Assembly (NCBI GenBank): GCA_017355425.1
Contig: CP070233.1
Location: 3,265,501-3,329,500 of the forward strand
From: Dolichospermum sp. DET69
Lineage (GTDB): Bacteria > Cyanobacteriota > Cyanobacteriia > Cyanobacteriales > Nostocaceae
Direction of reading: 5' to 3'
Length of the DNA stretch: 64,000 nucleotides
Below the pieces are notes generated by a model. It worked only from the letters and a program-made list of their open reading frames with translations, ran no database searches and was not told the origin of the DNA. Shown in pieces: positions 45,592-57,649 of this stretch. Position numbers and translations under genes: made by a program. The first letter of the stretch is position 1, and every line of letters starts with the position of its first letter.

Positions 45592-46804
45592 TTACTTTGA
45601 AAGTGTTACCTTTACTGGGGAAACTACAATCCCCTGTATCCCATCTGCAAAAGCATTAGGGATTGCTTTTTTGAGAATATTTAGTGAACCATTTACATCT
45701 GCATTAATTAAAATACCAAGAGCCGATTTATATAGACCACGTTTAATTCTCTTACCGCTAAAAGAATGGGTTTCCCCTTTTTTATATTTGGGGAGTACAT
45801 CTTGATCTAAAAAACTAGATTTAGATGTATAGCTTTCTTCGGTGATAATTACAGATATTCCCTGTAATTCTGCTTTATAAGTCAACTGTTCAATAAATCT
45901 AGTATGTGGTATTTGAGTAAAATTTTGGTTATTTTTAGAACCTATATTAAGTTCTTGTTTCCAACCTTCATTTTTGCCAATTACCAAAGTACCTATATTT
46001 AATTCAACTAACTTATTGATTAAATATCTGCTGGCTTTATGCAAGTAGTCATCAACCTTCAAATTGCGTTTTGTACAGAGAGTCTGTAATCTTTTTGATG
46101 TCTTATTTTTGAGAATCGCCTGTAATTCAGCTTTCTTTTTGTTAAAAAAATGATTAATGGATTTTAACGGTCTGCCATTGATCAAGAAAGGTATTAAACC
46201 TGCTTGATTGAAAGTTACAGAAGCCAAATTATTTAATCCTAAATCAATACTGGCAATTCTTTTATTATCTACCTGTTTTGGTTTTTCTTCTTGATGATAA
46301 ATCACCTCAACAACATAATGATTAAGCTTGGGAATCACCCTAACTTGTGCTATTTCTTTAGCCTGAGTAGGGAAAACTATCTCAGTCTGGCTAAGTTTAA
46401 TAAGTCCTTTTGATAGAAATGGTTTAGACAAAGCCTGTATGGTATAAACTAACAGGTTTCTCCCATTTTCCTTATGTTTGTATTTAGGTAATTTTGGTTT
46501 ACCCAAAAACTTAGATGGGTTTTCTTGATCAGCTTTTTGTGCTTGAAAAAATGCTTTCCAATTCTTATCTAAAATTATTAATATTTGCTGGCTTACTTTC
46601 GCTGGTAGATTTTTGTAATCAAACTCACTTTGTAATAATTTTTGGATCTGATTATAATTGAGAATCTTACCAGTTTCAAAGAAGGATTGTCTAATTAAGT
46701 AGTTGGCAGCATTATAGAGATTTTTGGAAAGAAAGCACAGCCTATCAATTTCTTGATAGTTTTTATGAGTTTTTTTGATGATATGTCTTTGAAGCTAGTT
46801 TCAT
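45592..46804 (-). pseudogene. TnpB RNA-guided nuclease of an IS607 element, 5' frameshift
   Basis: The frame from about 46790 to 45592 encodes most of a TnpB: KNYQEIDRLCFLSKNLYNAA at the N-terminus, RuvC aspartate in RIASIDLGLNNLASV, glutamate in VIGKNEGWKQELNIG and the last aspartate in ILINADVNGSLNIL. The zinc-finger cysteines of many TnpBs are absent, as in this subgroup. A good ribosome site GAGGAGG precedes an ATG at 46804 (MKL), but the frame breaks after the third codon with TAG. It looks like a short deletion near 46794. A TTG at 46506 could start a shorter product. Confidence 0.75.
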
Positions 46805-47126: not shown

Positions 47127-47450
47127 TACAGCACTTCTGGGTGTTATGAGGTACAAGAAGCCCACCCCCAGCCCCCTGACAGGTGTAGGTTTTTTACAAT
47201 TGGGTTTTATGTTGGACTTGGAAGACAAGGAAGGAAAGTAGACAAGGGAGTGTGAAGAGAAAGAACCGGAAAATTCTGCAAATCTTCATGGGTTTTAATT
47301 CTTCTTTGTTCTTCTTCCTTGTCCACTTTCCCTCCTTGTCTGCCAAGTCTAGCCCTATTATAAATCTCAATGTAAAAAACCTACACCTGTCAGCCCCCAA
47401 CCCCCTCATCGCAACCGATGAGGGGGCTAAGATGTGCCTCATAAAAGCGG
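47127..47450. repeat. TACAGC-family repeat that hosts a 218-bp element
   Basis: TACAGCACTTCTGGGTGTTA at the left and GGGGGCTAAGATGTGCCTCA on the right match the small repeat at 17731-17836. It is split by the 218-bp element at 47176-47393. The gap 47013-47492 has no gene. Confidence 0.7.
47176..47393 (+). mobile_element. 218-bp MITE family, copy 2
   Basis: CTGACAGGTGTAGG at the left, CCTACACCTGTCAG at the right, exactly 218 bases like the other two copies, but with a diverged interior. The flanks are CCCCCAGCCCC (47165-47175) and CCCCCAACCCC (47394-47404), an 11-bp duplication with one change. It is the oldest-looking copy of the three. Confidence 0.85.
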
Positions 47451-47492: not shown

Positions 47493-47750
47493 TCAGACTA
47501 CTAAATAGATAGATGTTCTGGCAAAATCAAGAGTAAAAATCTTATTGTCATAGAAACCAAATGGTCCCCTATTTGTTGATTGAGTGGCATTTATACCATC
47601 ATAAATGGTTGTTAACTGGGTACCAGAACTCCCCAAGAAAGGTAAAAAAGGTATACCACCTAAAATTTGTTGGACTTGTTCTGAATTTAAGTTAGACAAG
47701 AAAGTCTTTTCTTCAATAGGTTGCAAGTCAGAAATTATGATTGTAGCCAT
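47493..47750 (-). CDS. Double-glycine-leader peptide precursor A
   Basis: An 85-residue precursor. The leader SDLQPIEEKTFLSNLNSEQV then QQILGG (residues 31-32) fits leaders cut by C39 peptidases. The 53-residue core is IPFLPFLGSSGTQL, then TTIYDGIN, later FGFYDNKIFTLDFARTS. The core shares YDGIN, DNK(F/I) and D(Y/F)ART with precursors B and C. No cysteines, so no lanthionine or disulfide signs. The exporter genes lie upstream on the same strand. Function of the mature peptide is unknown. Confidence 0.75.
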   Translation of the reverse strand: MATIIISDLQPIEEKTFLSNLNSEQVQQILGGIPFLPFLGSSGTQLTTIYDGINATQSTNRGPFGFYDNKIFTLDFARTSIYLVV

Positions 47751-47823
47751 GATCTTATTTTATAATCAAAAAGTTAACAGTTCTGCGATTGTGACAAAAT
47801 TGCTATTGAATCTGCGGCAATAA

Positions 47824-48099
47824 TTAACGCCCTACCCAAGCATTAACTGTTCGGGCATAATCTATCGTATTGAATTTATTATCATGAAAGCTACCTGCTC
47901 CTTCATAAGTGTTTGAGATAGTATTTATACCATCATAAACTGTAGTTATATAAACACCAGAATCTAGACCCAATCTGGGATAAAGTCCCCAAAAATTACC
48001 ACCTAAAACAATACCAATTCCTTTTTCTATCACTTCTGAATCATCCATAAAGCTTTCTATCTCAGGAAGATATAAGTCTTTAATTACTATTCTTTTCAT
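47824..48099 (-). CDS. Double-glycine-leader peptide precursor B
   Basis: A 91-residue precursor. A leader of 34 residues ends GIGIVLGG. The core NFWGLYPRLGLDSG, then TTVYDGINTISNTYEGAG, then FHDNKFNTIDYARTVNAW, is nearly parallel to precursor C. The start ATG at 48099 has a GAGGA ribosome site. Leader D-x-Y-x-x-E-I-E-S-F text is like known GG leaders. Same family as A and C. Confidence 0.8.
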   Translation of the reverse strand: MKRIVIKDLYLPEIESFMDDSEVIEKGIGIVLGGNFWGLYPRLGLDSGVYITTVYDGINTISNTYEGAGSFHDNKFNTIDYARTVNAWVGR

Positions 48100-48220
48100 G
48101 ATCTTATCCTCTGAATCTTCAGTTGGATTGACTCTTATATTTTTGCATTATTCTCTAAAAAATGACCTAAAAGTTGCATATCAATGTCTTTTTTTATGGA
48201 CATAATTCAATACCAAAATC

Positions 48221-48253
48221 AAATCCCTGACTTCTTAAAGAAACCAGGGATTT
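48221..48253 (-). repeat. Hairpin repeat, possible terminator
   Basis: AAATCCCTG (48221-48229) pairs with CAGGGATTT (48245-48253). On the minus strand it is followed by GATTTTGG, so it may end transcripts behind the broken precursor. A relative of the hairpins at 4471 and 50565. Confidence 0.6.
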
Positions 48254-48275
48254 GATTATTTAAATATTCAAATAT

Positions 48276-48356
48276 TTAAACTACTAAACAGATAGCACTT
48301 CTTGTAAAATCAAGGGCAAAAAACTTAGTTTTATAGAAATCAAATAGATGTTCATA
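48276..48356 (-). pseudogene. Broken fourth peptide precursor
   Basis: Only a C-terminal core remains: HLFDFYKTKFFALDFTRSAI then CLVV, matching FGFYDNKIFTLDFARTSIYLVV of precursor A by position. The leader and the first half of the core are gone; 40 bases upstream starts the 160-bp dispersed repeat (48398-48553). An open frame fused through the repeat is not a real gene. Confidence 0.7.
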
Positions 48357-48397
48357 TAAAACTAATTCAGAGGGAACAGGGAACGGGCAACTTTCTA

Positions 48398-48553
48398 ACA
48401 GGAAAAACTCATGTTTAAAAACATGAGATTGAAATAATGACACTGTTTTTTTTCGGGCTACGCATCTTAAAAAACATCTTTTTTTTGACTGCGCTTTAAA
48501 CTGGTGCAAATGAGTGTTTCTTATTTCCAGTTAAGAGTTCCCTTCTTTTGTAA
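48398..48553 (+). repeat. 160-bp dispersed repeat (copy 2 of 2)
   Basis: Inverted copy of 10921-11080 with the CTCATGTTT/AAACATGAG hairpin and CGGGCTACGCATCTT. It lies between precursors C and the broken fourth precursor, where it replaces the 5' part of that gene. Confidence 0.8.
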
Positions 48554-48575
48554 TTAATTTTGTCTCATTACTTAA

Positions 48576-48842
48576 TTAACGAGATATCCAAGCATTAACT
48601 GTTCGAGCATAATCTGTTGTATTAAATTTGTTATCATGAAAGTTACCTGCTCCTTCATAGGTTTTTGACATATTATTGATACCGTCGTAAGTTGTCATGA
48701 TAGAAACATTAGGATTCAACCCTGAATAGGGATAACTGCCCCACGTCCCTCCTAATACAATGCCTACTTCTATGACATCTAAATCATCAATGAATGGTTT
48801 TAATTCAGTAGTATAAAAGCTATCAATCATTATTTTTTCCAT
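48576..48842 (-). CDS. Double-glycine-leader peptide precursor C
   Basis: An 88-residue precursor, MEKIMIDSFYTTELKPFIDD, leader ending GIVLGG (residues 31-32), core TWGSYPYSGLNPNV, then TTYDGINNMSKTYEGAG and FHDNKFNTTDYARTVNAW. The ATG at 48842 has a GGAGG site 8 bases upstream; an earlier TTG overlaps that site and is rejected. It is the first precursor behind the exporter genes. Confidence 0.8.
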   Translation of the reverse strand: MEKIMIDSFYTTELKPFIDDLDVIEVGIVLGGTWGSYPYSGLNPNVSIMTTYDGINNMSKTYEGAGNFHDNKFNTTDYARTVNAWISR

Positions 48843-48982
48843 TGTCCTATCCTCCAAATTATTAGTTGGGTCAACTTTTATATTTTTGCATTATTTTCTT
48901 AAAAATGATCTAAAATTTGCATACTAATGCCTTTTTCTTTTGGACATAATTTAATGAATTTTGTCTGCAATCCTAATTTTCT

Positions 48983-50515
48983 TTAAAGCTCTAAACCATT
49001 TTTTTGCAACTTCTTAAATGGATCTAAAATGAAGTCAACAACTCGACGTTGACGAATAATTACTTCGGCACTTGCTGTTTGCCCAGGAGTAAGAGGAATC
49101 TGTTTGTTCCCAACTTGAATATAAGGATTGTCTAAAGTAATATCTAATTCATAAGTTTCTATGCGATTGGCACTATTTTCCTGAATCTTAGAATTAGGTG
49201 AAATCCAATTAATTCGTCCTGATACAATTCCATATTCTTGGAAAGGATAAGCATCAAATTTGATTTTTACTGGCATTCCTGCTTTAACAAAACCACTGCT
49301 TTGACTAGGCATACGGGCTTTTAAAATTAAAGCAGCATTTTTTGGGGCAATTTGAGCAATCATTTGTCCTGGTTGGACGACAGAACCAGGTTTTTTAATA
49401 GGTAATTCAAATATTGTGCCATCAATAGGAGAGCGGACAATGCGCTGTTTCATCTGTAAATTCAAGGATATAATCTGTCCTTTTGTTTGCATAACTTCTG
49501 ATTGAACAGAAGTAATTTGATTTTCTAAGTCTTTAAACTGTTCCTGACTTTTTAGTAATACTAATTCTCCTCCTTGCATAGCACTTTTATAACTACTTTC
49601 TTCTTCTTCTAAACGGAGTTTTGCTTGTTCAATTTCTGAGCGAACTTGATTCATGAGAGACTGATAACGGCTGATTTCTTCTTTTAGTCGTAATTGTGCT
49701 GTTTGAATATTAAATTTTGCTTCTTCTTGTGAACGTTGACTTTCTTCGGCAATTTTTTCCAATTCTACTAATTTAGTTTGAGGAATTATCCCTTCCTTTA
49801 ACAGTAGACGGTAGCGCTGAACTTCAGAAACATCTCGACGGAAACGACTTGTAGCTAACCTGTAGTTAGTTTGAGTAGATCGTATATTCTGTTTTGCCTG
49901 ATCAATTTGGGCTAATTTCTCCAAATTTTGGAAATTATAAGCATTTTTTTTGGTCTCAAATGTTTGCTGTGCCTGATTAAGTTGAGCAATTTTCTCTAAT
50001 GATTGAGATTGGTTTTGCTGACTTTGAATATTAATAGACATTAAGACTTGATTTTTCAATATTTCTAATTGAGCTTGACGATTAGTTAACCCTTCCAATT
50101 TAGCTTTTGCCTGTTGTATTTCTGTTTTCAAAACTTCAGATTCCATTTCTACTAAAACCTGTCCAGCTTGAACCTGTGTTCCTTCTTTAACATTAACAGC
50201 AATAACACTACCTGTTACCACACTATCTAATTTCTGTGTTGCCCCTTTCGGTTCTATCCTGCCACTAGCACTTCCTGTTTCATCAACTTTAGTTAACATT
50301 GCCCATGGCAAAATAATTGCTGCAAAACTGACCAGCAAATACAACATTGAACGAGTCCATGCTTTTGGTAAAGCATCTAATAATTCTTCTGTACCATAAA
50401 ACCAATCCTTGGCTTTATCTAATGTCTGGGGTTGATTTTGGATAAAAGCAGTAGATTCAGTTTGATTCTGCGGCTTTATGGTAGTTTGTGATTGTGTATA
50501 AACTATCTGTGGCAT
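48983..50515 (-). CDS. HlyD-family periplasmic adaptor
   Basis: A 510-residue membrane fusion protein of a type I-like exporter. One N-terminal helix (MLYLLVSFAAIILPWAML) near residue 60, a lipoyl half-motif (VTGSVIAVNVKEGTQVQAGQVLVEM), a long alpha-hairpin coiled coil (residues about 140-355), the second lipoyl half (VRSPIDGTIFELPIKKPGSVVQPGQMI) and a beta-barrel C-terminus. It bridges the inner-membrane exporter to the outer side. It follows the exporter after 103 bases that hold a hairpin. Confidence 0.93.
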   Translation of the reverse strand: MPQIVYTQSQTTIKPQNQTESTAFIQNQPQTLDKAKDWFYGTEELLDALPKAWTRSMLYLLVSFAAIILPWAMLTKVDETGSASGRIEPKGATQKLDSVVTGSVIAVNVKEGTQVQAGQVLVEMESEVLKTEIQQAKAKLEGLTNRQAQLEILKNQVLMSINIQSQQNQSQSLEKIAQLNQAQQTFETKKNAYNFQNLEKLAQIDQAKQNIRSTQTNYRLATSRFRRDVSEVQRYRLLLKEGIIPQTKLVELEKIAEESQRSQEEAKFNIQTAQLRLKEEISRYQSLMNQVRSEIEQAKLRLEEEESSYKSAMQGGELVLLKSQEQFKDLENQITSVQSEVMQTKGQIISLNLQMKQRIVRSPIDGTIFELPIKKPGSVVQPGQMIAQIAPKNAALILKARMPSQSSGFVKAGMPVKIKFDAYPFQEYGIVSGRINWISPNSKIQENSANRIETYELDITLDNPYIQVGNKQIPLTPGQTASAEVIIRQRRVVDFILDPFKKLQKNGLEL

Positions 50516-50564
50516 AAGTAATTTGAAAGGTCTATATTTTTGTAGTTGTGTGTTAACTGAATAT

Positions 50565-50597
50565 AGATCCCCGACTTCTCTAAGAATTCGGAGATCT
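50565..50597. repeat. Hairpin repeat between exporter and adaptor genes
   Basis: AGATCCCCGA (50565-50574) pairs with TCGGAGATCT (50588-50597) with one mismatch. It is of the 4471 family. Without a T tract on the minus strand it is not a clear terminator, but could damp expression of the adaptor. Confidence 0.65.
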
Positions 50598-50618
50598 GGT
50601 TTAGTTGCAATTAAACAA

Positions 50619-53339
50619 TTAATTTGTTTGTGCTAATTGTTGTTGATTGAGATAGAAATAATGTCCTTTTTTGGTAATTAATTCTTCATGTGTACCACTT
50701 TCTACTAAAACTCCACGATCTAAAACTAAAATTAGATCAGCATTACGAACTGTGGAAAGACGGTGAGCAATAATTACACTTGTACGTCCTTGGAGAATTT
50801 TTTTGAGGTTATTCTGAATAATTCGTTCTGATTCAGCATCAAGGTGACTTGTAGCTTCATCTAATATTAAAAGTCGGGGATTTCCTAATAAAGCGCGAGC
50901 AATTGCTAACCGTTGGCGTTGTCCTCCTGATAACATTCCTCCCCCTTCACCAATTTGAGTTTCATAACCCATTGGCATCCTTTTGATAAACTCATCTGCA
51001 CCTGCAAGTTGGGCAGCTTCCATAATCTCTTCTAAGGAAGCTTCAGGATGGGCAATTGTGATATTTTCTCGAATTGTTCCCCCAAATAAAAAGGTATCTT
51101 GATCAACAACTCCTATTTGCGATCGCAAGGAATGTAAGGAAATACTAGTTACATCTTGATTGTCAATTAAAACTTTTCCATCTGTCGCTAGATATAACCC
51201 CAAAATCAATTTAGAAAGTGTTGTTTTCCCAGAGCCACTGCGGCCAACAACTGCTACAGTTTGCTCAGGTAAAATTTCAAAGCTGAGATTTTCGAGAATA
51301 TTAATTTCACTTTCGGGATGATAGCGAAATGTAACATTATTGAAATTAATCTTCCCAACTAATCTAGGTAAAAATTGCCGAGGCTGATGTTCTAAATCTT
51401 CCTCTGGCTGTGCTTCTAATACATCATTAATCCGTTCTGTAGCCACAATTACTTCTTGTAATTGATTCCACAAAATAATTAATCTTTGGAAAGGCTGAAT
51501 AATATTACCCAGCAACATATTAAAAGCAACTAATTGACCAATAGTAAGTTGGTTCTGAATAACTAACCAAGCCCCAAACCATAGCAGTCCTGTACTTACT
51601 AAAGATTGAATAGTAGAGCTAACTAATTGCAGTTGATTACTAATTAATTGACCACTAAAGTTTTTCTTGATTAAATTATTCAGCAATTCCTCCCAATGCC
51701 AACGAACTGTTTGTTCAATGGCCATGGAGCGAATCGAAGAAATTCCCGTCAAGCTTTGAATTAAATAACTATTTTCCAATGTTCCCGCAGTAAATACCTC
51801 CCGACTAATTCGCCGCAAAAAAGGTGTGGCAAAGAATGTTAATAACACAAATGGTGGGACAATTGCTAATGTCATTACAGCCATTGGTGGACTATACCAA
51901 AACATTAATCCCACATAAATAAAGACTGTCAGTAAATCCAAACCAATAGATAATGCCTCACCCGTAAGAAAACGTTGAATTTTTTGATTTTCTTGGACAC
52001 GGGAGACAATATCACCCACATAACGAGATTCAAAAAATGACAGAGGTAAACTAAATGTATGTTTAATAAAACCTACCATTAAAGCGACACTAATTCGGTT
52101 GGCTGTGTGGTCAAGTAAATATTGCCTTAACCCATTAATAGCAACACGAAATAAACCAAAAATTAACAAGCCAAAACCTACAGTATTTAAGGTTAAGACA
52201 CTACCTTGCACAATGACTCTATCTAATAAAAGTTGAGTAAATAAAGGTGTGACTAATCCAAATACCTGGATTAATACCGAAGCCATAAATACTTCTAGCA
52301 GAACTTGAGAATGAGGTTTAACTAAATCCAATAACTGCCAAAATGGTGTATTAGCTTCTTGGGTTTTTTTGAGTGAAGTTGTAGGCTGTAATAATAAAGC
52401 GTAACCAGTCCAACCTGCAAGAAATTCCTGGACACTAAGCTGACGTTGCCCAATAGCGGGATCGGCAATAATTACCTGTTTTTTGGTAATTTCATAGACA
52501 ACAATATAATGTTTACCCTGCCAATGAGCGATCGCTGGTAAAGGTTGTTGGGCAAATTTATCCAAACTGGCTTTCACTGGCCGGGTAGCAAAACCAAGAC
52601 TTTCGGCTGCTGCACTCAAACTTCGCATGGATGCCCCACTACGGCTAATATTAGCCAGATCCCGCAGCTTATTAATACTCAGGTTTTTACCCCAATAACG
52701 ACCAACCATAACTAAACAAGCAGCACCACAATCAGCAGAACTTTGTTGTTCAAAAAATGGATAACGTTTGGTAAATTTACGCCACCAATTTCCGGCGATT
52801 ACAGTAGGAATAGGAAAGTATTTAGGGCGTTTTTTGGCTGGTGTTTGTGTGGGAATTACTGGTTGAGTAAAATTGGCACTTTTGACAGTTTTCGAGGCTA
52901 CAACCAGGGGAATATCGGGAGATTTGGGAGGATTAATTACCTCTGCCTTATGTAGCAAAAGATCATAAACACTAGGAAATTCTCCCATTACCTTCTTCAC
53001 CGTTGATTGGGGAAGATAGGCAATTTTTAAATTTACAGAAGCTCTAGCAACATAACTACTAAAATCTTGTTCTGGAAATAAAGTTAACTCCCCAAATGAT
53101 GCCCCTGGAGTCAGAGTATTAATTAAATCATTAGAGCTATCTAACAATCTCACCTTACCCGACAGCACAATATAAATTCCCGGTTTTGCTGTTTCCGCTT
53201 GCCAAAATTGTTTGGCTACTGGTGGTTCAATAATTTCTAAAGCCTGGATACAATCTGTAACTGCTTGATCTGATAACCTATCACCCAAGACTTGCTTAAT
53301 CTGTGTAGCTAACTCTTTCTGAGAAAACGCTGATAGCAT
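50619..53339 (-). CDS. Peptidase-containing ABC exporter with cNMP-type domain (HetC-like layout)
   Basis: A 906-residue protein: an N-terminal cyclic-nucleotide-binding-like domain (PGIYIVLSGKVRLLDSSNDL, GASFGELTLF), a C39 peptidase domain (catalytic cysteine in QQSSADCGAACLVMVGRYWG near residue 205, histidine in WQGKHYIVVYE, aspartate in IADPAIG), six membrane helices, and an ABC domain (Walker A GRSGSGKTTL, signature LSGGQRQRLAIARALL, Walker B LLILDEATSHLD, H-loop IIAHRLS). It cuts GG leaders and exports the peptide. The order cNMP-C39-ABC is that of HetC. It is followed by the adaptor and precursors. Confidence 0.93.
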   Translation of the reverse strand: MLSAFSQKELATQIKQVLGDRLSDQAVTDCIQALEIIEPPVAKQFWQAETAKPGIYIVLSGKVRLLDSSNDLINTLTPGASFGELTLFPEQDFSSYVARASVNLKIAYLPQSTVKKVMGEFPSVYDLLLHKAEVINPPKSPDIPLVVASKTVKSANFTQPVIPTQTPAKKRPKYFPIPTVIAGNWWRKFTKRYPFFEQQSSADCGAACLVMVGRYWGKNLSINKLRDLANISRSGASMRSLSAAAESLGFATRPVKASLDKFAQQPLPAIAHWQGKHYIVVYEITKKQVIIADPAIGQRQLSVQEFLAGWTGYALLLQPTTSLKKTQEANTPFWQLLDLVKPHSQVLLEVFMASVLIQVFGLVTPLFTQLLLDRVIVQGSVLTLNTVGFGLLIFGLFRVAINGLRQYLLDHTANRISVALMVGFIKHTFSLPLSFFESRYVGDIVSRVQENQKIQRFLTGEALSIGLDLLTVFIYVGLMFWYSPPMAVMTLAIVPPFVLLTFFATPFLRRISREVFTAGTLENSYLIQSLTGISSIRSMAIEQTVRWHWEELLNNLIKKNFSGQLISNQLQLVSSTIQSLVSTGLLWFGAWLVIQNQLTIGQLVAFNMLLGNIIQPFQRLIILWNQLQEVIVATERINDVLEAQPEEDLEHQPRQFLPRLVGKINFNNVTFRYHPESEINILENLSFEILPEQTVAVVGRSGSGKTTLSKLILGLYLATDGKVLIDNQDVTSISLHSLRSQIGVVDQDTFLFGGTIRENITIAHPEASLEEIMEAAQLAGADEFIKRMPMGYETQIGEGGGMLSGGQRQRLAIARALLGNPRLLILDEATSHLDAESERIIQNNLKKILQGRTSVIIAHRLSTVRNADLILVLDRGVLVESGTHEELITKKGHYFYLNQQQLAQTN

Positions 53340-53360
53340 TTCCTAACCTCCAAAATACTA

Positions 53361-53957
53361 TTATTTATTGGTCTGCATGAGATTAAATGACCAATGAAAA
53401 CTAGGTTCAGTTGGAGAATGTAAATCACTAATTTTAATTGCCAAATCCTGATTATCAGTAGTTATCACTGGGGAACTTTTCCGTTTAGTAGAAAGTCCCA
53501 TTTGTTTAAGTAAGCGGTTAATGTGGCGATCGCTAATTTGAATTCCTAACTCTTTCGCTAGATGTTTACTCAACCATTGAGCCGTCCAATCACCAAAAGC
53601 ATAGCCATATTCACGGGGACTAGAATTAACTAATTCTTTCAATCTTTCAATATATTCATTATTAACAATCTTTGGTCTCCCTAATGGACGTTGATTCCAT
53701 TTGTGTGCCATACCTGACTCAGCAATACCGATCCAATATCTGGACATCTCCTGAGAACAACCAATCATTTCACAAATATGAGTTTGGGATTTTCCCATAT
53801 CTGCTAATAACATAATCTCAATTCGTCGCCGATATTCTGGTTGCGAATTACTTTGTAAATTTTTTAGCAACACCTTCCGCTGAAAAGGAGTTAAAAACTT
53901 ACTTTGATATGGATCGTAAATATTAACAACCTGATCTTGATGAGAATAAGATGACAT
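53361..53957 (-). CDS. Helix-turn-helix regulator (IS630 N-terminal-like)
   Basis: A 198-residue protein with two DNA-binding blocks: SQTHICEMIGCSQEMSRYWI near residue 60 and a winged-helix part ending ISDRHINRLLKQMGLSTKR. They match the N-terminal, DNA-binding half of IS630-type transposases; no DDE catalytic part follows. Such HTH proteins often precede peptide exporter genes in cyanobacteria, by my recollection. It ends 21 bases before the exporter and is likely the operon's regulator. Start ATG at 53957 with GGTAAG upstream; ATG at 53996 is an alternative. Confidence 0.75.
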   Translation of the reverse strand: MSSYSHQDQVVNIYDPYQSKFLTPFQRKVLLKNLQSNSQPEYRRRIEIMLLADMGKSQTHICEMIGCSQEMSRYWIGIAESGMAHKWNQRPLGRPKIVNNEYIERLKELVNSSPREYGYAFGDWTAQWLSKHLAKELGIQISDRHINRLLKQMGLSTKRKSSPVITTDNQDLAIKISDLHSPTEPSFHWSFNLMQTNK

Positions 53958-54713: not shown

Positions 54714-55097
54714 TACAGCGGTTTTCGCTCTTATGAGGTACATCTTAGCCCCCTCATCGCACCCCCCTCAATCCCCCCGCAACGGGGGGAAGAAAAGGAT
54801 AAACTTTTGATATTGGAGGGGGTTGGGGGTCTGACAGGTGTAGGTTTTTTACAATTGGGTGAGGACAGGACTTGGAAGACAAGGCAGACAAGGTGACAAG
54901 GGAGGAAAACCGGACAAGAAATGGATGATTGGTCATAAAACAAACCATAAATTGGGTATTTTATGGATAAAATCTTCCTTGTCTACTATCCCTCCTTGTC
55001 TTCCTGGTCTTGCCTTTACAGAGAATATTAAAAACCTACACCTGTCAGGGGTTGGGGGTGGGGTTCTTGTACCTCATAACACAAAGGAAGTGCTGTA
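54714..55097. repeat. TACAGC-family repeat that hosts a 218-bp element
   Basis: TACAGCGGTTTTCGCTCTTA at the left and AGTGCTGTA at the right end a repeat of the 17731 family, split by the 218-bp element at 54831-55048. Confidence 0.75.
54831..55048 (+). mobile_element. 218-bp MITE family, copy 3
   Basis: Terminal repeats CTGACAGGTGTAGG and CCTACACCTGTCAG, exact 11-bp duplication GGGTTGGGGGT on both sides (54820-54830 and 55049-55059). By eye, its reverse complement is identical to the copy at 16118-16335 over all 218 bases. Confidence 0.9.
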
Positions 55098-56599: not shown

Positions 56600-57075
56600 A
56601 GAATACCCGGTAAGTGGGAAACTCAGCGGCTTGGCTCCCTGAGAGGGAAACGACACGGGCGGTAATAAAGGCTTTGAATCTTTTTTCATTACCGCCTTGG
56701 AGTTAAGAAATTCGGGGTACTTTTGTGATGTACTTTCAACGGGACAATTACCGATTCAAATTTCCCAACTCTGTACGCATAATGTTTTGCTCACTCATAG
56801 CCTCCCTTTCGGGGTGATGTTAGCAACGACTGCGTTATAAGAGCTTGTTATACTTGCAACACTGTTTCAGTGACCTTAAAACTGTTTAATTGCAAATGAC
56901 AGAGCAAGGAACTAGCTATGCCTGACGGCACGCTGGCGCGAACGCATTCGGTGGGTGTCGTGACTCAAATAACGGCTACCCTTCGACTTACGTTCAGGGT
57001 GGTCCAGTACAGCTTGTTTGATTACTCTTGCAAGCTCAGTCCCTTTAGGGCTGGGTTACTGACGTCCAGACACAA
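56600..57075 (+). ncRNA. Orphan structured element related to the IscB omega RNA (copy 1)
   Basis: It starts with GGTAAGTGGGAAACTCA (56609-56625), TGAGAGGGAAACGACACG (56640-56657), a hairpin GGCGGTAAT..ATTACCGCC, a CTCCCTTTCGGGG hairpin near 56813 and ends CAAGCTCAGTCCCTTTAGGG (57031-57050). The first and last motifs recur at 59.95 kb and, more weakly, before iscB. No iscB follows. The gap 56175-56599 before it shows no gene. Confidence 0.5.
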
Positions 57076-57265: not shown

Positions 57266-57649
57266 CTATGCTGACTTTTTTTCTCTATTATTAGCGCGTG
57301 CATCTGCCTTTTGCTTGCCTCCCACTTCCATATAAGCTAGATCTTTAATCTTGCTCAAACAGCTAGATGCCAGATTGCTTTCGGATCTTTTCTCTGTGGT
57401 TGGTTTCGCAATTTTTAGAGTTTCATTATTTTGTGTATTTGAGCGACCCGTGCGAGCATTTTCCTTCAGGATGCGGTTATAAGTGCGATAAGGGATATAG
57501 TGCATGGGATTATAGCCAACGAACCGCAACATTAAAACACAAGCCCAAGAATACTTTCCTGCCAAAATCGCTTCGACTACTTGGTCTAACTGTTCAGGAT
57601 GGATTTTTGGTTCTAAGTTGTTACCACTGCCAGCAATATCTTGATTCAT
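57266..57649 (-). CDS. HetP-family heterocyst differentiation protein
   Basis: A 127-residue protein: [40 protein letters not shown] and RILKEN form the conserved HetP domain (residues 20-68), followed by a variable basic/polar tail. HetP and its homologs control commitment to heterocyst development. Anabaena has several; this copy is not next to hetC, so I do not use the symbol hetP. The ATG is at 57649. The gene stands alone in a 4.3-kb region without other genes, and has a HetR-like palindrome about 0.8 kb upstream. Confidence 0.82.

Follow-up and report, generated by a model that had tools for sequence, protein, structure and literature searches.

Small cyanobacterial proteins with double-glycine (GG) leaders have been described alongside C39-type exporters in several settings. 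The closest to the locus reported here are the Group II clusters (Wang, Fewer and Sivonen 2011; PMC3140520), which are described as combining a long-type CAP_ED-C39-ABC (ATP-binding cassette) transporter, an HlyD protein, a SurA-like rotamase, HetP-like genes and several GG precursors. Loci encoding HopA1 and a phosphotransferase carry Family 1A precursors, whose cores are described as highly variable and devoid of conserved Ser, Thr or Cys (PMC8153245). In Synechococcus elongatus, EbfG1-4 are several small GG-leader proteins that need their GG motifs and the C39 transporter PteB and that serve biofilm (PMC4997328, PMC9981879). HetC of Nostoc PCC 7120, in which a cyclic-nucleotide-binding-type (cNMP) domain precedes the C39 and ABC parts, has been proposed as a signal exporter, and its missing substrate has been named as the next crucial step (PMC10986499). 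More generally, little is known about what the cNMP-C39-ABC exporters of cyanobacteria transport. Here, we describe such an exporter in the bloom-forming cyanobacterium Dolichospermum sp. DET69, within a stretch of 64,000 nucleotides of contig CP070233.1 (the window), together with precursor genes of two types, which we call A and B. The locus type is already known; the paired, conserved A/B core appears to be newly described. A conserved, paired core beside such an exporter provides candidate substrates with predicted masses.

The locus is a single row of genes, all on the minus strand, running from a helix-turn-helix (HTH) gene through the cNMP-C39-ABC exporter and an HlyD adaptor to three GG-leader precursors (Table 1). 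A sequence-only reading of this DNA had claimed this arrangement, and its order and domains are borne out by Pfam and NCBIfam. The exporter matches the Pfam families cNMP_binding (6.7e-10), Peptidase_C39 (1.6e-43), ABC_membrane (9.4e-47) and ABC_tran (4.9e-35); its C39 catalytic Cys lies in the motif ADCGAACL at residue 202, and the Walker and signature motifs are also intact. The translations confirm that all three leaders in the window contain GG and that all three cores lack cysteine, as had been noted; each core holds 9-12 Ser/Thr. By its domains and adjoining precursors, the window contains a C39 double-glycine export system of the peptidase-containing ABC transporter (PCAT) kind, in which cutting and export are predicted.

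The same reading had seen one core shared by the three precursors. Their likeness is indeed far beyond chance (local alignment scores of the cores are 220 for A1-A2, 88 for A1-B and 113 for A2-B, whereas 2000 shuffles of each pair never exceeded 55, 43 and 49, respectively), but instead of one common core there are two types, in the order A, A, B. The C-terminus of type A reads DNKxxTxDY(S/A)R(S/T), followed by a mostly polar or aromatic tail, and that of type B reads DNKxxTxDF or DL, with a mostly hydrophobic tail such as YLVV (DNKxxTxDFxR..YLVV). Counting every match to a broad profile as a member was rejected because many such matches share only the leader; those with the C-terminal motif were kept. 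The resulting set, drawn from 12 named loci and other genomes, holds 83 distinct sequences (46 A and 37 B), across which the DNKxxTxD core is conserved. Cysteine anywhere in the core is found in 0/46 A and 3/36 B sequences. In a tree of 82 rows, from which one short B row was left out and whose types had been assigned beforehand by their C-terminus, A and B fall on opposite sides of one branch (support 97/94; 98% of bootstrap trees).

The two types mostly occur together. Stretches from 49 entries were scanned with the A and B profiles; these entries represent 45 distinct genomes because four entries duplicate a genome, as judged by identical scores. Both types were present in 41 of these genomes, in a scan that ran largely on sequences that had built the profiles and in which the assignment to type B was a close or weak one for L045, L056, L057 and L141. 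One type only was found in G324 and G389, each represented by a single 3 kb stretch, and none scored above the cut in G256, where a contig end cuts it, and G330, where stops break it. Between A1 and A2 in the window lies a remnant that is 59% identical to B residues 64-85 (tblastn) and scores 19.3 bits against the B profile. The series A1, B remnant, A2, B would fit the doubling of an A-B unit followed by decay of one B; the remnant is also present, in the same arrangement, in G128 (L005, L034).

The earlier statement that the core has no known name holds for Pfam and NCBIfam. No model of either collection was matched above its cut-off by the window precursors, and 51 family members searched at E up to 0.01 gave 0 families in Pfam and, in NCBIfam, the CTB family bacteriocin for three and TraK for one. 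A match of P0001 to DUF6645 (Pfam E 0.046, 14.2 bits against 27 needed) was taken as chance. The CTB bacteriocins (NF038167), which are the subject of PMC9846622 and PMC9679502, are likewise cyanobacterial GG-leader precursors, but A/B sequences reach at most 18.9 bits against the cut-off of 32, mostly over the leader, and the window precursors gave no match to this family. The true CTB genes of the window's genome, at C1:2976493 (L145) and C1:1018792 (L146), lie within a few kilobases of other C39 exporters (C1:2979040 and C1:1015920). AlphaFold models had low confidence (mean predicted local distance difference test scores of 37.8 for 17 A rows and 40.2 for 16 B rows), solved structures gave a single match at E 0.27, and a plasmid collection searched with one type A protein gave no match. 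Full-text searches of the literature brought up no name for the core; the motif is not searchable as text and the precursor tables of supplements lay outside this search, so an earlier listing of single members is possible.

The core is confined to one cyanobacterial family in the genomes sampled. Of 217 genomes of the window's family, 101 match a 51-row profile at E up to 0.001. Full-length matches, taken as those at 2e-15 or better with the next best at 2e-8, number 59 and come from 22 of 56 genera; this count is a reading of the score table, with alignments inspected among the matches listed. In a sample of 386 genomes across the phylum, 31 match the profile, 28 of them inside the window's family, and no full-length match lies outside it. 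The three outside matches are partial: G211 (1-55 of 86) and G042 (1-37 of 86) match on the leader side only, and G698 is a short frame with stops.

In relatives, the orthologous locus continues beyond the genes seen in the window. Its order is HetP-family gene, HTH gene, exporter, HlyD and PPIC rotamase, followed by a convergent HopA1 gene (PF17914, 3.8e-62), an LxmK-like kinase and further GG precursors whose cores are quite different from those of A/B. In six Dolichospermum/Anabaena loci (L036-L039, L042 and L043), A and B occupy the interval from hlyD to the rotamase gene, and HopA1 and the kinase lie further on. Compared with the Group II clusters by their published description, these six have the one-cluster layout, but the window does not, its copy being without the rotamase and further genes. 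L040 is also without the rotamase/HopA1/kinase half, in L044 the rotamase is present but neither HopA1 nor the kinase appears within the 3 kb read, and L034 and L035 end at a contig end. Among other genera, L045 and L046 have A/B at the same place, and L047 and L052 have B only. A HopA1/kinase pair lies near A/B in the six named loci and in L045-L047, and not in the window, L040, L044 or the stand-alone loci read. In the genome of the window, the rotamase, HopA1 and kinase genes are found together with six other precursors 2.2 Mb from the window, at C1:5513.7-5519.8 kb; a second HopA1 gene lies apart from the first, at C1:4676508 (L149). The export locus thus belongs to a known type and is split in the window. 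It had been noted that no enzyme of ribosomally synthesized and post-translationally modified peptides (RiPPs) lies beside the precursors; this is correct within the window but does not extend to the relatives, and rearrangement of the locus best explains the absence.

Going by the published descriptions, the precursors of the known systems differ from A and B in their cores. The orthologous locus shares HopA1, a kinase and GG precursors with the Family 1A loci, but the variable cores that define Family 1A are not seen across our 83 distinct sequences, in which the core is conserved and holds a near-constant Thr. Similarly, the cited account of the Group II clusters (PMC3140520) stresses little core conservation, in contrast to A/B. 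For EbfG1-4, the mature proteins are reported to lack homology to proteins of other cyanobacteria (PMC4997328). The conserved A/B offer a built-in contrast with the variable precursors found at this type of locus. If one exporter carries both, a single export machine would serve several peptide families.

An association of the core with the exporter across genomes, which the sequence-only reading had anticipated, was found in part. A/B directly follow hlyD in 10 of the 12 named loci, and in an eleventh (L045) they are placed between hlyD and the rotamase gene; an exporter ortholog (79% or more) is present in all 31 core-bearing genomes of the order sample, G256 and G330 counted. However, the exporter is also common without the core, and A/B often stand apart from it. 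Orthologs with at least 73% identity over the aligned part occur in most sampled genomes of the family, with or without A/B, and 29 of 40 family genomes without the core have one (73% or more). By these hand counts, core and exporter ortholog are associated (Fisher p 0.0016). Because the exporter occurs without A/B and A/B occur away from the exporter, neither needs the other alongside. The A/B pairs without an exporter in L058, L060 and L065 lie near a cytochrome P450 gene and a phosphoketolase-like gene.

Among close genomes, A/B cores are kept by selection, loosely. Median ratios of nonsynonymous to synonymous substitution rates (dN/dS; Nei-Gojobori method, few close genomes) were 0.37 for the A core, 0.66 for the A leader, 0.48 for the B core and 0.32 for the B leader, with 0.11 for the exporter and 0.18 for HlyD. 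The core of another precursor type gave 0.86 from 6 pairs only, a value on which we do not lean. We found no candidate immunity gene among open reading frames (ORFs) of at least 30 amino acids after hlyD in the 12 loci; shorter or unlinked genes lie beyond that search. Besides the precursors, no small coding-strand ORF is common to more than 4 of the 12 loci. Minor groups on this strand are a frame of 31-34 amino acids that spans the gap separating A from B in four close relatives, and a repeat-derived frame in the window and L034; the remaining shared groups run on the opposite strand.

Based on these observations, we give about even odds to the proposal that this transporter cleaves and exports A and B, which would then work jointly in the extracellular space on the producer's own kind, at the surface or in the matrix or as a signal, rather than killing. 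In its favour are the intact exporter domains and C39 motif, the place of the precursors after hlyD, the division into two co-occurring types, the association of the core with exporter orthologs, the dN/dS of the cores, the lack of any other widely shared small ORF and the precedent of the EbfG proteins. The most likely course for cutting, export, joint action and target would be as follows. The A and B precursors would be made from the 3' end of the exporter operon, and the C39 domain would recognise their leaders and cut at GG or at a relaxed Gly-x site. Cores of about 53-57 residues would then exit via the HlyD adaptor and onward through an outer-membrane channel whose gene lies elsewhere, and A and B would be used jointly outside the producer, on its own kind, as a surface or matrix component or a signal.

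Several observations weigh against this proposal. The exception among the 12 named loci, L041 of Aphanizomenon flos-aquae FACHB-1287, has A/B away from any exporter relative in the stretches read, and in several other genera A/B are likewise not near such a relative in the stretches read. The Fisher test relating the core to an exporter ortholog ignores relatedness. When the tree was rebuilt without the C-terminal motif, the A/B split took 3 changes rather than 1 (shuffled mean 26.9), so that the labels are still strongly clustered but the split is imperfect. The dN/dS values of A and B exceed the exporter's 0.11 three- to fourfold. Finally, the strict site reads GG in 15 of 17 type A rows but in only 3 of 16 type B rows, the rest having GT (5), GS (4) or DT (4). 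The simplest model has real trouble accounting for the relaxed site seen in most type B rows. A looser count of GG anywhere in residues 23-44 (46/46 A, 27/36 B) overstates its occurrence, and we prefer the strict-site counts.

Compatible with export and joint action, yet rather unlikely in our view, is that A/B are RiPPs in which core Ser/Thr are dehydrated by the LxmK-like kinase and HopA1 before export. HopA1 and such a kinase dehydrate Ser/Thr in class V lanthipeptides (PMC9486802), the two genes share the locus with A/B in the six Dolichospermum/Anabaena loci and are kept elsewhere in the window's genome, the leaders of A/B resemble those of the other precursors in the relatives' locus, and the window cores offer Ser/Thr in number. 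However, these cores lack the Cys that ring closure to lanthionine would use, the kinase is below the LxmK cut-off (82.5 of 315 bits), and several A/B pairs stand alone. The window also differs from class V (LanK/LanY) loci in having neither gene beside its precursors, with the pair 2.2 Mb off.

Somewhat more doubtful, and offered tentatively, is a broader version of the export proposal: A and B may form a two-part peptide system, peculiar to heterocystous filaments, whose halves act jointly outside the cell. They would have joined a RiPP export locus that was already there and, in the lineage of the window, would have been separated along with the exporter from the modification genes. If so, one cNMP-gated exporter would use a single leader code to send out several peptide families unrelated to each other, and peptide release would be coupled to a nucleotide signal.

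It appears unlikely that A and B instead kill related strains as a pair of the two-peptide bacteriocin or microcin-like kind, with immunity unlinked or provided via the exporter. GG leaders, a C39 exporter and two co-occurring short peptides fit this idea, clusters with this exporter type have been called putative bacteriocin clusters (PMC3140520), and the two types are encoded together in most of the core-bearing genomes read, as are the two peptides of class IIb bacteriocins. However, class IIb pairs have a dedicated immunity gene, and no shared candidate ORF of at least 30 amino acids was found in the 12 loci; together with the conservation of the cores across genera, this argues against a classical bacteriocin. 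One type B leader scored 13.0 bits against a class IIb model that needs 21.5, over the leader alone.

That A/B are a heterocyst-related cell-cell signal sent through a HetC-like exporter is quite improbable: the exporter shares the domain plan of HetC, for which ppGpp binding by the cNMP domain in vitro and a requirement for that domain in vivo are reported (PMC10986499), a HetP-family gene lies upstream of the operon, and A/B are restricted to the window's family, but the exporter is only about 37% identical to the nearest other long exporters of its genome, HetP-like genes were already reported to be common beside such clusters (PMC3140520), and a full-length match is missing from 158 of 217 family genomes, so A/B are not required for heterocysts in general. 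The description of the exporter as HetC-like is apt for its domain plan; the identity figure refers to its two nearest paralogs in the same genome, neither of which can be assigned as HetC. Among the exporters of the window's genome, L086 and L087 showed no HetP-family gene within their 1.5 kb flanks. HetC also differs in that, according to PMC10986499, there is no GG-leader gene near hetC.

Table 1. Features of the export locus and its upstream neighbour, in window positions.
Feature	Position	Strand	Support
HTH_32 regulator-like gene, 198 aa, first of row	53361..53957	-	Pfam HTH_32 7.4e-11
cNMP-C39-ABC peptide exporter, 906 aa	50619..53339	-	Pfam domains; C39 Cys, Walker and signature motifs
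HlyD adaptor, 510 aa	48983..50515	-	Pfam HlyD_3 4.3e-23; NCBIfam TIGR01843 229 bits, over cut-off
Precursor A1, 88 aa from ATG; predicted core of 56 aa after GG	48576..48842	-	
Type B precursor remnant, last 22 residues only, not a gene	48279..48344 (about)	-	tblastn; B profile
Precursor A2, 91 aa; predicted core of 57 aa after GG	47824..48099	-	
Precursor B, 85 aa; predicted core of 53 aa after GG	47493..47750	-	
HetP-family gene, 127 aa, conserved upstream neighbour	57266..57649	-	NCBIfam NF037966 2.6e-34, 116.6 bits, cut-off 45

The upstream neighbourhood is well kept. In all 10 named loci of the Dolichospermum group that hold the exporter, the HTH gene precedes it, and in 9 of the 10 the HetP-family gene lies upstream of the HTH gene; it was not seen in L034. 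In NCBIfam, the HTH gene resembles IS630 transposases over their first half (72.4 bits, below the cut-off of 100). A HEARO RNA (RF02033, 91.4 bits) lies between the HetP-family gene and the operon, at 56814-57063 (-) of the window. The exporter is about 905-912 amino acids long in the Dolichospermum group and about 1012-1041 in many other genera, the extra length being on the N-terminal side. Beyond the HetP-family gene, L100, L101, L102, L112 and L113 have an additional ABC exporter gene that is 45-51% identical to the exporter described here over the part read.

Just past the precursors, at 45592-46506 (-), the window has an ORF of 304 amino acids that looks like an IS605-type OrfB/TnpB. It sits near the point beyond which the ancestral locus is no longer present. 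A repeat containing gacaggtgtaggttttttac flanks the operon on both sides, at about 47130-47440 and 54730-54860, as located by eye.

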